A stretch of DNA of 34,851 bases from Gemmatimonadota bacterium (GTDB taxonomy: Bacteria; Gemmatimonadota; Gemmatimonadetes; Gemmatimonadales; Gemmatimonadaceae). The DNA lies in assembly GCA_031127225.1 (NCBI GenBank), contig JARIEV010000018.1, positions 1 through 34,851 on the forward strand. Reading direction: 5' to 3'. Numbering within the stretch: the first letter of the stretch is position 1; every line of letters begins with the position of its first letter. A program made the position numbers and the translations under genes. The notes beneath the pieces are model-generated. The model was given only the letters and a program-made list of their open reading frames with translations. It was not told the DNA's origin and ran no database searches. This document shows positions 20,482-26,801 of this stretch, one piece after another.

Positions 20482-21672
20482 TCAATGCGCCGGCAGGGCC
20501 CCCGCGAAGCCGAGGGACTCGAGCACGAGCATCACCCCATCCGGATCAGAGACTGATCCCTGCGCCATGCGGGGAGAGCCGCCACCCCGCCCACCCACCG
20601 CCTGCAGCGCCGTGCGCAGCCGCTGCCCCGCGTCGATCCCGGTGTCCTCGGCCGCCGCCAGTAGTACGGCGCCAAGCGTGGCGTTGGTCACCACGACCGC
20701 ACAGAAACCGAGCGCGATCAGCTGCTGCGCCAGCGGCTCGGCTTCTTTCACCGGCGCCGTGGTGGACACTACGATGCGGCGTACTCCGTCGCTGTCAGGG
20801 ATACTCGCCGTCCAGAGCGCGGCCGCCTCGTAGCGTGCCAGCTCGGCGCCCATGCGCTTCCGCTCGCGTTCGCCGTCGGCAATCCGCTGGGTTTGCTGTT
20901 CCACCAGCCCGGGCAGATCGTGCGGGGCGGCTGACAGCGCGCGTGCAGCGCGCGTGAGGAGATCGGCGTCGGCGCGCGCGCGCGTGACCGCCCGGTGGCC
21001 GCACACGAATTCGAGGCGCGTGTGTCCCTTGGTCTTCTCGGCGCGGCGCAGCAACAGCGCCCCGATCTCTCCGGTGCTGACCACGTGGGTCCCGCCGCAG
21101 GCGCTGCGGTCGATCCCCTCGATGGTCACGATGCGCAGCTCGCCGTTGCGATCGCTTGGCTTCCGGAGCCCCGTGGCCGCTGCGGCGTCTTCGAACGACA
21201 CCGTGACTGGCCGGTTCTGCACGATGAGTGCGTTGGCCCGGCGCTCGAGGTCGGCGAGTGACGCCGGATCAAGATCCTCGGCGGCCACGTCCACGGTGTT
21301 GGTGTCGTCACCGAAGTGTACGCTGAGCGTGGGCCAGCCGTAGTGGTCGGTGAGCATCGCCGAGAGGAGATGCTGGCCGGTGTGCTGCTGCATGTGATCG
21401 ACGCGCCGTGTCATGTCGATCTGTCCCACGAGCATGGCGCCGATGGGGACCCCGATGGACTCCGCAAGGCAGTGCGCGATCCGCTTGTCTTCGTCGATGA
21501 CATCGACCACCGCGATGCCGCCCAGCGTGCCCAGATCGTGGAGCTGTCCGCCCGACGTGGGATAGAACGCGGTGCGGTCCAGATACACGCGGCGGCCCTC
21601 GTCGGCGATGTCGAGGACCGCAGCCGTGAAGCGGTCGAGGCGCGCGTCGGTGTAGTACAGGCGGTCGGTCAT
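20482..21672 (-). CDS. Alanyl-tRNA editing protein AlaX-L with DHHA1 domain
   Basis: Free-standing AlaX proteins hydrolyse tRNA-Ala that was wrongly charged with serine or glycine. The 396-residue product is the long type. The N-terminal domain resembles the AlaRS editing linker (RTAFYPTSGGQLHDLG). The zinc site is complete: His97 and His101 in QQHTGQHLLSA, and Cys192 and His196 in RSACGGTHV. The C-terminal 160 residues form a coiled region and a DHHA1 domain ending VGGRGGGSPRMAQGS, as in alanyl-tRNA synthetase. There is no aminoacylation domain, so it is an editing protein and not an AlaRS fragment. The ATG at 21672 begins the conserved sequence; no clear ribosome site precedes it. It heads a likely three-gene operon with the beta-barrel and DinB genes, although their functions do not obviously connect. 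Confidence 0.93.
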   Translation of the reverse strand: MTDRLYYTDARLDRFTAAVLDIADEGRRVYLDRTAFYPTSGGQLHDLGTLGGIAVVDVIDEDKRIAHCLAESIGVPIGAMLVGQIDMTRRVDHMQQHTGQHLLSAMLTDHYGWPTLSVHFGDDTNTVDVAAEDLDPASLADLERRANALIVQNRPVTVSFEDAAAATGLRKPSDRNGELRIVTIEGIDRSACGGTHVVSTGEIGALLLRRAEKTKGHTRLEFVCGHRAVTRARADADLLTRAARALSAAPHDLPGLVEQQTQRIADGERERKRMGAELARYEAAALWTASIPDSDGVRRIVVSTTAPVKEAEPLAQQLIALGFCAVVVTNATLGAVLLAAAEDTGIDAGQRLRTALQAVGGRGGGSPRMAQGSVSDPDGVMLVLESLGFAGALPAH

Positions 21673-21740: not shown

Positions 21741-24236
21741 ATGCTGACGCGCAATATGCTGATTCCGCTGTCGACCGGGATGTTCCGGCGTGTCACCACC
21801 GGCGCCGTGCTGGCGCTGGTCGCGGCCGGGAGCACCGCGTGCAACAGCCGGTTCTTCCGGCTGACGCCGGAGCGTGCCGCGCCTCCGACCATCGTCCCCG
21901 CCGCGCCCCAGGTGGCGCCGGCGGTGGTGGAGTCCCCGGAGCCCGAGCCGATCCCCGCGCCCTCTGATTCAGCGGGCGTCGCGCGCTTGCAGCAGCTGCT
22001 GCAGGTGTGGCATCTGGTGTCGCTGTATCACCCGGCCGTGGTCGAACGCGGCGCCCCGTGGGATTCCGCGTTCATCCGCGCGGCGACGGTGGTGCGGTCG
22101 GCCAATGCTACACCACAATTGGCGGGTGCCTACCGTCGCCTGCTGTCGGTGCTGCAGGACCCACTCACACGGGTGGAGCTGACTGATACCACCCGCGTAA
22201 CGGAGGCGACCTCAGCGCAGCCGACCTTTGCGTTCAGCAGCGAGCGCACGCGCGATAGCGTGCTGATCGTGCGCGTCCCGTTGGGTGCGGCGCAGCACGC
22301 GCTCTTCACCGACAGTGCCGCCGCGATGGTGCGCGAGGTGCTGGCGACGGCGCCCACGCGCGTTGTGCTGGACGTGCGCGGGTCGGGTGCGCTCACCGGT
22401 CCCGCCGCGGATTCCCTCAGCGCCACGGTGGATCGGTTCGCGGCGCACGCGGGACTGGTGACGCAGTTGAACAGCACCATCATCGTGGCGAGCACGGAAC
22501 GGATGCGGCGCGTGGGTGGTGCGCGGGTGGCCGACGGCCAGTGGTCGCCCGACGACGTCTGGATGACGCGCTCGGGTGCGCCGGTATTCGCCGCGTCGTC
22601 GGCGCCGCGTCGGGTCATGGTGCTGGCCAATCGCGCCACGGTGCTGCCGCGCGCGCTGTTGTCGCTGGTGGCCGTTGGTCGTGCCACGCTGCTGGCCGAG
22701 GAGGGGGTAGACGACACGCCGCTCGTGTCGAGCGTGGTGCTACCGATTGCCGATGGGCTCACGGTGCGGGTGCGCACGGGTGAGCTGGTGCACGCCGACG
22801 GCAGCACCGGGTTGGTGGCTGACTCCGTGCTGCCGCGCGCCGCCTTGCCGGCGGACAGTGCGCCGGTGCTGCGTGCGGCGCTCTCGCTGCTGCGCACCGG
22901 CCGTGCGGTACGCGGCCACGGCAGCGCGTCGCGCCTGCCGGTGCGGCGTCTCCCGGCGGTGCTGCCGGCCTACTACGACAGCGATCCGTATCCCTTCATG
23001 GGGGCCCGTCTGCTGGCGGCGGCGCGTCTGTGGAGCGCCATCCGGGTGCGGCATGTCCATCGCGATCTGTATGACGACGACATGGACGCGGTACTGGCGC
23101 GCACGATTCCCGCGCTCGAGGCGGCCCGCACGGCCACGGAGTATGCGGCAGCGCTGCTCCCCATGGTGTCGGCGCTCGACGACACGCCGACGAATCTGCG
23201 CGGCGCGTCGGTCGATTCCGTGCGCGGCATGGCGTCGGTGCCATTCCGCGTGCGCTGGATCGAGGATCGTGTGATCATCACCGATGTGGTGCGCGACTCC
23301 GTCACGACCGCCCTCGGCATCGACACCGGCATGGAGGTCACCGCCGCTGATGGCTTTCCCGTGCCGGCGTGGATCATCGATCATCGCACGGCGGTGTCGG
23401 CGCCGAACACGTGGTCACGGCTGCGCACGCTGATGCCGCTGCTGGCCCGCGGCCCCGCGGGCGGCGCACTGTTCCGGCTGCGTGATCTGGCCAACCGTGA
23501 GCGACAGCTGAACGTGCCGCGCCGCGACGGATATCTCGCGCCGCTCGCTTTGGTGGAACGTCCCACGATGGGTGCGGTGCGCACGTTGCCCGGCGACATT
23601 GTGTATCTCGACGTAGAACGGCTCTCGGCCGATTCGATCACGGCACTGCTGGCGCGTTCGCGTGGTGCCCGCGCGTGGATGCTGGATTTGCGCGGCACCC
23701 TCGGTGACGGGCAGGCCGACGCCGTGCTGGCGGCGGTGCGCGCGGTGCCGGCGGCCGTGACGGCCCGCGAGGTGCGGCGGTACGACGGTGATCCCTGTGT
23801 GATGCCCACGCTGCGCGAAGCACGCGAGCGCTGTCCGACCACGCGCGAGACGCGCGCGCGGGTGAGCGTGGGTGATACCACCGGTCACTACACCGGCGCG
23901 ATCGTCGCGTTGATCGATGAGCGGACCACCGGCGCGATGGAACGGCTGGCCGTTGCCCTCGATGCCGTTGCGCGCGTGACGTTCATCGGGTCTTCCAGCG
24001 CGGGGGCACCGGGTGAGGTGATGACGGTGGGGTTGCCCGGAGGGCTGACGGTGGCGTTGCCCATCGTCGAGCTGCGTCGCGCCGACGATGTGCAACTGCA
24101 GCGGGTGGGGATCACGCCGAGTGTGGAGGCGCGGCTCACGGTGCGCGGCGTGCGCAGCGGTTTCGACGATGTGACCGAGCGGGCGCAGCAGTGGCTCGGG
24201 CAGCAGCTCGATCCGCCATCGCGCCGTCGTCGATAG
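21741..24236 (+). CDS. Tandem S41-peptidase-like lipoprotein, both halves apparently inactive
   Basis: This 831-residue lipoprotein has a lipobox-like STAC (Cys34, or Cys21 from the ATG at 21780). It seems to contain two S41 (C-terminal-processing/tricorn-type) units. Unit 1 starts ARLQQLLQVWHLVSLYHP; unit 2 starts AARLWSAIRVRHVHRDLYDD. Both resemble the S41 N-terminal helical pattern 'L..LW..v.y.HP...WD.a...aip......t..Ya..l...l..L.D'. Unit 2 then has a PDZ-like part (VVRDSVTTALGIDTGMEVTAADG) and the S41 core (DIVYLDVERLSAD, ARAWMLDLRGTLGDG, IVALIDERTTGAMERLA, IGSSSAGAPGEVMTVGLPGGLTV, QLQRVGITPSVEA). Where active enzymes carry the nucleophilic serine (T-x-S-A-x-E) this protein has T-T-G-A-M-E, glycine at 23931-23933. 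The equivalent segment of unit 1 (RATVLPRALLS) also lacks it. It may be a binding or scaffold protein. The hrpB frame follows after 3 bp. Confidence 0.75.
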   Translation: MLTRNMLIPLSTGMFRRVTTGAVLALVAAGSTACNSRFFRLTPERAAPPTIVPAAPQVAPAVVESPEPEPIPAPSDSAGVARLQQLLQVWHLVSLYHPAVVERGAPWDSAFIRAATVVRSANATPQLAGAYRRLLSVLQDPLTRVELTDTTRVTEATSAQPTFAFSSERTRDSVLIVRVPLGAAQHALFTDSAAAMVREVLATAPTRVVLDVRGSGALTGPAADSLSATVDRFAAHAGLVTQLNSTIIVASTERMRRVGGARVADGQWSPDDVWMTRSGAPVFAASSAPRRVMVLANRATVLPRALLSLVAVGRATLLAEEGVDDTPLVSSVVLPIADGLTVRVRTGELVHADGSTGLVADSVLPRAALPADSAPVLRAALSLLRTGRAVRGHGSASRLPVRRLPAVLPAYYDSDPYPFMGARLLAAARLWSAIRVRHVHRDLYDDDMDAVLARTIPALEAARTATEYAAALLPMVSALDDTPTNLRGASVDSVRGMASVPFRVRWIEDRVIITDVVRDSVTTALGIDTGMEVTAADGFPVPAWIIDHRTAVSAPNTWSRLRTLMPLLARGPAGGALFRLRDLANRERQLNVPRRDGYLAPLALVERPTMGAVRTLPGDIVYLDVERLSADSITALLARSRGARAWMLDLRGTLGDGQADAVLAAVRAVPAAVTAREVRRYDGDPCVMPTLREARERCPTTRETRARVSVGDTTGHYTGAIVALIDERTTGAMERLAVALDAVARVTFIGSSSAGAPGEVMTVGLPGGLTVALPIVELRRADDVQLQRVGITPSVEARLTVRGVRSGFDDVTERAQQWLGQQLDPPSRRRR

Positions 24237-24239
24237 CGA

Positions 24240-26801
24240 TTGGCTGTGCACACCACCACCACGACCCTGCCGATCGACGAGATTCTGCCGTCATTACGCG
24301 CCGCGCTGGCGGAGCGCATGGTGGCCGTGCTCGAAGCGCCGCCGGGTGCCGGCAAGACCACGCGGGTGCCCCTCGCGCTGGTCGATGAGCCATGGTTGGC
24401 GGGCGCCAAGGTGGTGATGCTGGAGCCGCGGCGGCTCGCGGCCCGTGCCGCGGCGTCGTACATGGCCTCGACGCTGGGCGAAGAGGTGGGGCAGACGGTG
24501 GGCTACCGCGTGCGCGGCGAGACGCGCATCTCGAAGCGTACGCGCATTGAAGTGGTCACCGAGGGCGTGCTGGCGCGCATGCTCAGCAGTGATGCCGCGC
24601 TCGAGGACATCGGACTCGTGATCTTCGACGAATTTCACGAGCGGTCGCTGCACGCCGACCTTGGGTTGGCGCTGGTGCTCGAAACGCAGCGCCATCTGCG
24701 CGATGAGCTGCGGGTGCTGGTCATGTCGGCTACGCTCGATGGGGTGGCGGTGTCGGCGTTGCTGGCCGACGAGGGCGGGCTGGCGCCGGTGCTGCGCAGC
24801 GAGGGGCGCATGTTTCCCATCGAGACGCACTATCGCGCCCCACGTCGCGATGAACGTATTGAGGCGACGACGGCGCGTGTGGTTCGCGAAGCGCTCGACG
24901 CCACCGAGGGTGATGTGCTGGTGTTCCTGCCGGGCGCGGGTGAACAGCGTCGCGTGGCGGAACGTCTCACCGGCGACGCGATGACCGGCGTGTGGGTGCA
25001 CACGCTGCACGGCAGCATGCCACTGGCCGAGCAGGACGCCGCGCTCGCGCCCGCGCGGCCGGGTACGCGCAAAGTGGTGCTGAGTACGAGTGTGGCGGAA
25101 ACGAGTCTCACCGTGGCCGGCGTGCGCGTGGTGATCGACTGTGGATTGTCGCGCGTGCCGCGCTACGATGCGTCGGCGGGACTGACGCGACTGCACACGG
25201 TGCGCGTGAGCCGCGCGTCGGCCGATCAGCGTCGTGGTCGTGCGGGACGCACGGCGCCCGGTGTGAGCTACCGGCTGTGGGATCAGCACGAGGATCACAC
25301 GTTGCTGCCCAGCACGCGTCCGGAGATTGTGGACGCCGATCTGTCGTCGTTGGCGCTCGAGCTGGCCGATGCCGGCATCAGCGATCCAACGATGCTGCGA
25401 TGGCTCGACGTGCCGCGGGCGGGGCCGTTTGCGCAGGCGCGCGGGTTGTTGTCGCAGCTGGGTGCACTCGACAGCACCGGGCGCATCACGCCGCACGGAC
25501 GTCGCATGGCGGCGTTGCCGTTGCAGCCGCGCTTGGCGCATCTCGCGATCATCGCAGCCGAGCGTGGCGCGTTGCCGCTCGGTGCGGCGATCGCGGCGTT
25601 GCTGGAGGAGCGCGACATCGTGCGCTACGACGGCCTGCCGCCGCAGTCGGATCTGCGGCTGCGCACGGAGCTGTTGCGCCGTGATGGCGCACAGGGGGCC
25701 GCTGGCGTGGCGGTGGATCGCGATGGCGTGCGTCGCGTGCGACAGACGGCCGATGATCTCGCGCGTCGGATGGCGGGCGGAGGCCAGAGTGCGGCGTCGT
25801 CGCGCGCGTCGTGGGACGACGCCGACACGGGTGCACTGTTGGCGTTGGCCTATCCCGACCGCGTGGCGCAGCGTCGCAGCGGCGCCGAGCCGCGGTACCT
25901 GCTGCGCAACGGGAGCGGCGCGGTGCTGGCGAAGCACGATGCGCTGCACGACTCGCCGTATCTGGCGATTGCCGATCTCGAAGGCACGTCGCCTGAGGCG
26001 CGCATTGTACGCGCGGCACCGATCACGCTCGAGGAGCTGCGCGAGGATTTCGGCGAACAGTTCGTGCGCGTGCAGCTGGTGGAGTGGGATGAGCGCACGA
26101 AGGCCGTGCGCGCGCGGAAGCGCACGATGTTCGGCGCGATCGTGATCGACGACGTGGTGTGGACCGACGCCGATCCGGCGGTGGTGCTGGGGGCGGTCGT
26201 CGGTGCGATCCGCGCGCAGCTGGCGCGCAGTGGCATCGAGGCGTTGCCCCTCTCACAGGCGGCGGCTCGCTTGCGCGAGCGAATGGCATTCGCGCACGCA
26301 CACGACGCGAGCTGGCCCGATGTGTCGGTGGCGGCGTTGTCGGCGTCGCTGGAGGAATGGGCGGGCCCGTATCTCGACGGGGTGCGCACGTGGGGGCAGC
26401 TGGCGTCGGTGGATTGGCACGACGCCCTGCAGTCGCTGATGCCGTGGGCGCAGCGGTCGGCGTTGGAGCGGGTAGCACCCACGCATCTGGAAGTGCCCAG
26501 CGGGTCGCGGATTGCGCTGGACTACAGTGAGCCAACGGCCCCGGTCTTGGCCGTGAAGCTGCAGGAAGTGTTCGGGTGGACGAGCACGCCGATGCTGATG
26601 GATGGGCGGGTGTCGCTCACGCTGCAGCTGCTGTCGCCGGCGCAGCGGCCGGTGCAAGTGACGCGCGATCTCGCCGGTTTCTGGCGCAGCTCGTACTTCG
26701 AGGTGCGGAAAGAGCTGCGCGGGCGATATCCGCGGCACCCATGGCCGGAGGATCCGCTCACGGCGGAGGCGACGAGGAGAGCGAAGCCGCGTGGGACGTG
26801 A
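24240..26801 (+). CDS. hrpB: ATP-dependent helicase HrpB
   Basis: HrpB is a DEAH-box helicase-like protein of the DEAH/RHA family; its biological role is poorly known. The 853-residue length matches the family. Motifs appear in order: APPGAGKTTRVP (Walker A, Lys39), MLEPRRLAARAAA (Ia), VVTEGVLARML (Ib), IFDEFHERSLHADL (II, here DEFH), MSATLDG (III), VFLPGAGEQRRV (IV), VLSTSVAETSLTV (V) and SADQRRGRAGRTAPG (VI). A HA2-like region and the HrpB-specific C-terminal domain follow, ending WPEDPLTAEATRRAKPRGT. The frame opens with TTG at 24240, then GTG at 24246. Neither has a Shine-Dalgarno site, and the preceding gene stops at 24236, so translation is probably coupled. No motif appears missing. 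Confidence 0.95.
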   Translation: MAVHTTTTTLPIDEILPSLRAALAERMVAVLEAPPGAGKTTRVPLALVDEPWLAGAKVVMLEPRRLAARAAASYMASTLGEEVGQTVGYRVRGETRISKRTRIEVVTEGVLARMLSSDAALEDIGLVIFDEFHERSLHADLGLALVLETQRHLRDELRVLVMSATLDGVAVSALLADEGGLAPVLRSEGRMFPIETHYRAPRRDERIEATTARVVREALDATEGDVLVFLPGAGEQRRVAERLTGDAMTGVWVHTLHGSMPLAEQDAALAPARPGTRKVVLSTSVAETSLTVAGVRVVIDCGLSRVPRYDASAGLTRLHTVRVSRASADQRRGRAGRTAPGVSYRLWDQHEDHTLLPSTRPEIVDADLSSLALELADAGISDPTMLRWLDVPRAGPFAQARGLLSQLGALDSTGRITPHGRRMAALPLQPRLAHLAIIAAERGALPLGAAIAALLEERDIVRYDGLPPQSDLRLRTELLRRDGAQGAAGVAVDRDGVRRVRQTADDLARRMAGGGQSAASSRASWDDADTGALLALAYPDRVAQRRSGAEPRYLLRNGSGAVLAKHDALHDSPYLAIADLEGTSPEARIVRAAPITLEELREDFGEQFVRVQLVEWDERTKAVRARKRTMFGAIVIDDVVWTDADPAVVLGAVVGAIRAQLARSGIEALPLSQAAARLRERMAFAHAHDASWPDVSVAALSASLEEWAGPYLDGVRTWGQLASVDWHDALQSLMPWAQRSALERVAPTHLEVPSGSRIALDYSEPTAPVLAVKLQEVFGWTSTPMLMDGRVSLTLQLLSPAQRPVQVTRDLAGFWRSSYFEVRKELRGRYPRHPWPEDPLTAEATRRAKPRGT

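Follow-up and report, generated by a model that had tools for sequence, protein, structure and literature searches.

A tandem S41-type protein without catalytic Ser or His, conserved at one locus in two related bacterial genera, is a candidate envelope-anchored binding protein

The gene studied here lies at positions 21741–24236 on the forward strand of the window (the whole stretch of 34,851 nucleotides that was analysed), and encodes a tandem S41-type pseudoprotease of 831 residues, predicted to be a lipoprotein. Translation showed no stop within this frame, and 27 further orthologues were found in the window's genus (termed g1). The divergent upstream neighbour (20482–21672, reverse strand) encodes an AlaX-type alanyl-tRNA editing protein (PF07973), and the downstream neighbour (24240–26801, forward strand) encodes the helicase HrpB (PF08482, HrpB_C); synteny is conserved on both sides. 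The hrpB frame, as listed mechanically, opens with a TTG start 3 bp past the stop of the tandem gene, and the real start may be further on. The tandem gene and hrpB probably form one operon. A scan for promoters and terminators detected no signal exceeding chance. The tandem gene is present in the window's genome as a single copy. Beside it, this genome encodes three more S41 proteins, of which two have an intact Ser/Lys motif of the CtpA type.

According to the sequence-only reading, two S41-like units lie in this frame, and profile comparison bore this out. Unit 2 is composed of a helical N-terminal domain (residues 405–495, 22953–23225), a PDZ-like domain (residues 497–600, 23229–23540) and an S41 core (residues 601–820, 23541–24200), all on the forward strand, as are the other features within the gene. 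This unit belongs to the S41 family by its match to PF03572 over residues 622–796 (E 1.2e-10; 41.7 bits against a cut-off of 24), and NCBIfam models for CPAF and CTP proteases matched weakly at about residues 710–820. The PDZ-like domain was assigned from profile matches to PDZ domains in the PDB, and Pfam PDZ was matched in several orthologues. Unit 1 has a helical N-terminal domain (residues 78–151, 21972–22193) and an S41-type core (residues 152–395, 22194–22925), and is too short to contain a PDZ domain.

The two units were compared with hhalign, using profiles built from about 30 tandem proteins. The helical domain of unit 1 matched that of unit 2 with an E-value of 4.6e-11, and in separate comparisons of the helical part, with unit 2 and with active S41 relatives, the value was about 1e-10. 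The core of unit 1 matched the core of unit 2 (E 1.4e-6) and active S41 relatives (E 5.4e-5), while the whole of unit 1 (residues 78–395) gave a full-length alignment to unit 2 (E 3.8e-8) and, with S41 units taken from active relatives that are not part of the tandem set, an E-value of 5.7e-9. In each of six comparisons, 0 of 60 column-shuffled controls scored as high as the real alignment: the highest score from a shuffle was 22.5, and those observed were 41–71. Since these profile-profile scores far exceed those of the shuffles, unit 1 was identified as a second S41-type unit, and by sequence comparison the protein is made of two such units, unequal in make-up.

A different reading of the same region would be that there is one true S41 unit only, unit 1 being a region of helices and beta structure with no relation to it. 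It could draw on the Pfam S41 models, which gave no match to unit 1 in the 28 sequences scanned, and on the matches of unit 1 to PDB sequences, which were marginal; however, all but one of the latter were S41 proteases, and the profile of unit 1 matched both unit 2 and the active relatives at scores that none of the 60 shuffles reached. A single-sequence phmmer search against the PDB gave a chance match only. AlphaFold2 was run on an alignment of seven sequences, too shallow to give more than a low mean pLDDT (33.5 for the full protein and 34.3 for unit 1), and the models were unusable as structures. The low-confidence secondary structure predicted from them had the same order in both units, also at odds with the one-unit reading: helices, then strand-strand-helix-strand-helix, and later helix-strand-strand-strand. 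This order agrees with the S41 pattern, but as a model prediction counts for little. Taken together, a single S41 unit is considered highly improbable.

In unit 2, the place of the catalytic Ser is occupied by Gly731 (GGC, 23931–23933), inside the motif T-T-G-A-M-E. Gly was found here in 20 of 21 g1 rows and Asp in one, and the active relatives have Ser, always encoded by AGC or AGT, so that GGC is one transition away from a Ser codon, as had been pointed out from the sequence. The place of the catalytic His is Pro483 (23187–23189); it is occupied by Gln, Pro, Ala or Ser in g1, and by His in all active relatives. In unit 1 the His place is Leu142 (22164–22166), where QDPLTR aligns with HDTHAN of the active proteins, and the Ser place is Leu302 (22644–22646; ATVLPRALL), assigned from a gap-free alignment by eye, whereas hhalign opens a two-column gap at this position. 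The T-x-S-A-x-E motif of active S41 enzymes is therefore without its Ser in both units (Gly731, Leu302), and no base was found at either Ala756 or Pro483. Both Ser and His were absent in all 26 g1 sequences with a full unit 2 and in all four sequences of a second, related genus (g10). The earlier proposal that both active sites have been lost is thus well founded, but not the assumption of Ser/Lys chemistry for this branch. The column of the S41A Lys (residue 756) has Ala in the window's protein, Ala or Ser in the dead proteins, and Ala in the close active relatives; as the latter keep His and Ser, they look like Ser/His enzymes. We take their site to be of the CPAF/tricorn kind. At the column of the acidic residue (Q787), Gln is present in close active and dead proteins alike.

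A signal peptide is predicted from Met14 to the lipobox Cys34 (STAC; 21780–21842), which, as a pattern in the sequence, is what defines a bacterial lipoprotein. The lipobox Cys is present in all g1 orthologues with a captured N-terminus, and most of their lipoboxes (LAAC, LASC, LLAC, LGGC, LAGC and others) are stronger than that of the window's protein. The earlier description as a lipoprotein therefore needs some qualification: STAC is weak by itself, but membrane anchoring of the tandem protein is likely, mainly because the orthologues carry good lipoboxes. Of the active tandem relatives described below, one (L058) has a plain signal peptide and another (L057) is ambiguous.

The tandem gene was detected in 28 of 30 g1 genomes, including the window's own. 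Many of the genomes compared are draft metagenome assemblies. In one of the two genomes without the gene (G071) the contig ends at the AlaX gene and no hrpB was detected; in the other (G047), which is 59% complete, both neighbours are missing. True gene loss in these genomes is unsupported, as there are assembly breaks or gaps at the locus. Two orthologues (L023 and L028) are partial at contig ends, and L028 also has Gly at the Ser place and no His. L023 (genome G050) stops near residue 725, a few bases before the end of its contig; hrpB opens another contig, which makes an assembly fault more likely than a broken gene.

The tandem gene was located between the divergent AlaX-type gene and hrpB in 26 sequences of g1 and four of g10, and in three more sequences the one neighbour that the contig holds is present. 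In genera g20 (G103, G104) and g27 (G112), AlaX and hrpB adjoin directly, with about 50–75 bp between them and no tandem gene (L105, L110, L122), which means either that the g1/g10 line acquired the gene by insertion or that the other lines lost it. Among 395 sampled genomes of the phylum, none outside the order yielded a full tandem protein.

The unit 2 tree, calculated from 60 rows with the catalytic columns masked, had one dead clade (support 100/98) nested inside active S41 proteins. Its sister, with moderate support (90/81), was a clade (99/96) in which Ser and His are intact. Three members of this clade (L037, L057 and L058) are complete tandem proteins in which unit 1 is dead and unit 2 has Ser and His; two others (L039 and L041) have, of unit 1, the extra helical domain only. 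The sequence-only reading had raised the question of whether every homologue lacks Ser. This is so for the whole of one clade, but not for the related clade, in which unit 2 has retained both Ser and His. As they are retained in that unit only, unit 1 probably died first and unit 2 later, this being the simplest order. Active paralogues of about 600 residues (L043–L049) were found to have an extra N-terminal helical copy and no first core, so that the duplication, or a partial one, predates the tandem clade. In the L039 and L041 proteins, both of genome G009, the C-terminus is also extended by about 200 residues.

The tree requires that Ser and His were lost at least twice, once in the tandem clade and once in a lineage of single-unit proteins from family f2. 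A single origin of all dead S41 proteins found is ruled out by the separate loss in this lineage. Its proteins (L061–L065 and L068, from the f2 genomes G190, G193, G179, G237, G181 and G183) are about 436 residues long and come from several genera; Gln, Glu or Arg has replaced His and Gly has replaced Ser, and they form an independent pseudoprotease lineage. For the tandem gene, the course of events proposed from the tree starts with an active secreted S41 enzyme to which a second unit was added, inactive from the outset or inactivated later; the remaining active site would then have been lost in the g1/g10 ancestor, with the gene kept between AlaX and hrpB.

Selection was estimated by the Nei-Gojobori method from pairs within g1, for some of which dS is near saturation. 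In unit 1, dN/dS was 0.14–0.21 for the core and 0.04–0.25 for the helical domain; in unit 2 it was 0.03–0.10 for the helical domain, 0.06–0.33 for the PDZ-like domain and 0.11–0.17 for the core. Higher values (0.46–0.73) were obtained for the N-terminal tail and linker. The frames of the g1 orthologues are intact at about 44–89% identity. These results agree with the earlier view of an old tandem duplication kept as an intact frame, and the low dN/dS of both units points to purifying selection. Among 15-residue stretches of the protein, conservation is highest at 417–431, in the helical domain of unit 2, and second highest at 723–737, which is the former Ser loop.

Two features are newly conserved. 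The pair Cys686-Cys698 (23796–23834), gained in g1 and located shortly before the former Ser loop, was present in 21 of 21 g1 rows and in none of 14 others, and possibly forms a disulfide gained after the loss of the active site. The C-terminus is basic (RRRR, 24222–24233), and RRR or RRRR was found at or next to the end in nearly all members of the dead clade and was absent from the active related clade; no other long frame within the window ends in this way. The low dN/dS, the conserved Ser loop, the Cys pair and the RRR(R) tail suggest a function that was kept and further evolved, rather than decay. The loss of one active site and then of the other could also be taken for a gene decaying along with its function, but such decay is contradicted by dN/dS values far below 1 in both units, by intact frames over this range of identity, by the conserved synteny and by the two new features, and is extremely improbable.

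Conservation of the former Ser loop could also be read as a sign that enzymatic activity persists, at a non-canonical site involving, for example, Thr729, Glu734 or Gln787. Thr729 and Glu734 are invariant in g1, and the retention of both leaves a theoretical possibility of unusual chemistry. However, Glu734 is no less invariant in the active relatives and is thus conserved for structural or ancestral reasons, and the variation at the His place (Gln, Pro, Ala or Ser) speaks against a conserved base there. A non-canonical enzyme is therefore considered improbable.

The best PDB matches of the profile were RBP3/IRBP, the interphotoreceptor retinoid-binding protein of the vertebrate eye (E 4.6e-21, summed over modules), 4ghn and CPAF. 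Since the RBP3 score is a sum of modules, and its single domains scored no better than CPAF or 4ghn, it reflects a shared fold and not closeness. IRBP consists of tandem S41 modules of bacterial S41 peptidase origin, which have lost their catalytic residues and bind ligands, namely retinoids and fatty acids (PMC11750400, PMC10450429). The tandem protein resembles this vertebrate protein in having at least two S41-type modules per chain, all without catalytic residues, and in the helical domain (domain A of IRBP). In contrast, IRBP is eukaryotic, has four modules and binds retinoids and fatty acids, whereas the Gemmatimonas protein has two unequal units, a predicted lipid anchor and a PDZ-like domain. 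In the tree, which was built without IRBP, the dead clade nests among S41 proteins of the Gemmatimonadales, with active relatives from the same order; this argues against a dead state shared with IRBP by descent.

Among active enzymes, chlamydial CPAF (3dja) and tricorn, of the S41B type, resemble this group in the Ser/His site of the active relatives and in the PDZ-like domain that precedes the core (E about 1e-12), but the tandem protein is without Ser and His and has a second dead unit. CtpA and Prc (S41A, tail-specific) likewise have an S41 core and a PDZ domain (E 1e-7 to 1e-8) but use Ser/Lys, and at the Lys place the dead tandem proteins have Ala or Ser. L037, L057 and L058, from other genera of the Gemmatimonadales, are alike in the dead unit 1 and the PDZ-containing unit 2, and differ in that Ser and His are kept in unit 2, the genomic place is another, the RRRR tail is missing and the lipobox is absent or doubtful.

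What the sequence comparison supports is a protein of two S41-type units which is without catalytic Ser and His and is maintained by selection at one locus. That two genera keep a dead protein at the same chromosomal place suggests that it probably binds now instead of cutting. We consider it reasonably probable that the tandem protein is a maintained non-catalytic S41 pseudoprotease, lipid-anchored at the envelope, and by analogy with known proteins of this fold we infer that the PDZ-like domain and the former cleft would do the binding. The sequence-only reading had suggested that substrate-binding parts were kept, and the PDZ-like domain and the former active-site loop are indeed retained and conserved. 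Its proposed roles of periplasmic peptide receptor, decoy or scaffold are hypothetical. In the proposed mechanism, the PDZ-like domain of unit 2 and the former cleft, with Gly in place of Ser, would hold a ligand uncut. Candidate ligands are a peptide or protein C-terminus or, by comparison with IRBP, a small hydrophobic compound, and unit 1 could serve as a structural or second binding half.

The main rival explanation is that the protein serves the active S41 proteases of the cell as an adaptor or regulator; it would dock on a CtpA-type enzyme and deliver or withhold substrates in the manner of LbcA. The two S41 proteins with intact CtpA-type motifs in the same genome would be possible partners, CTP proteases have known lipoprotein partners, such as LbcA for CtpA of P. 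aeruginosa (PMC8764530), and pseudoenzymes sometimes regulate active relatives (PMC11266112). LbcA, however, is a TPR protein and no S41 homologue, the active enzymes of this genome are distant CtpA-type proteins and not close paralogues, and no genomic linkage was seen, so that an adaptor function appears rather unlikely. Returning to the binding protein, we suggest tentatively, and again by analogy, that a bacterial lineage may have independently evolved the IRBP design, i.e. a tandem S41 protein with all sites lost, acting as an envelope-anchored ligand binder and fixed in two genera, with active tandem relatives recording the intermediate step.

One bacterial order has the stages side by side, from active S41 proteins, through tandem proteins with one dead unit, to tandem proteins with both units dead, so that a switch from cutting to binding could be tested by comparing them directly. 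To our knowledge, the tandem dead S41 protein known so far is IRBP, whose route from protease to binder is inferred across a horizontal transfer that took place more than 500 million years ago. A limited literature search found no paper on bacterial inactive S41 proteins, which does not disprove the existence of one. The analysis also puts a name to a conserved, predicted envelope protein of Gemmatimonas.

A single-unit dead S41 lipoprotein with an RRR end was observed in a further genus (L040, L130:474-9286, genome G111, genus g26), about 6 kb from the AlaX gene, and hrpB of this genome is on another contig than L040. This site is possibly the same locus in rearranged form, in which unit 1 was lost or never gained.
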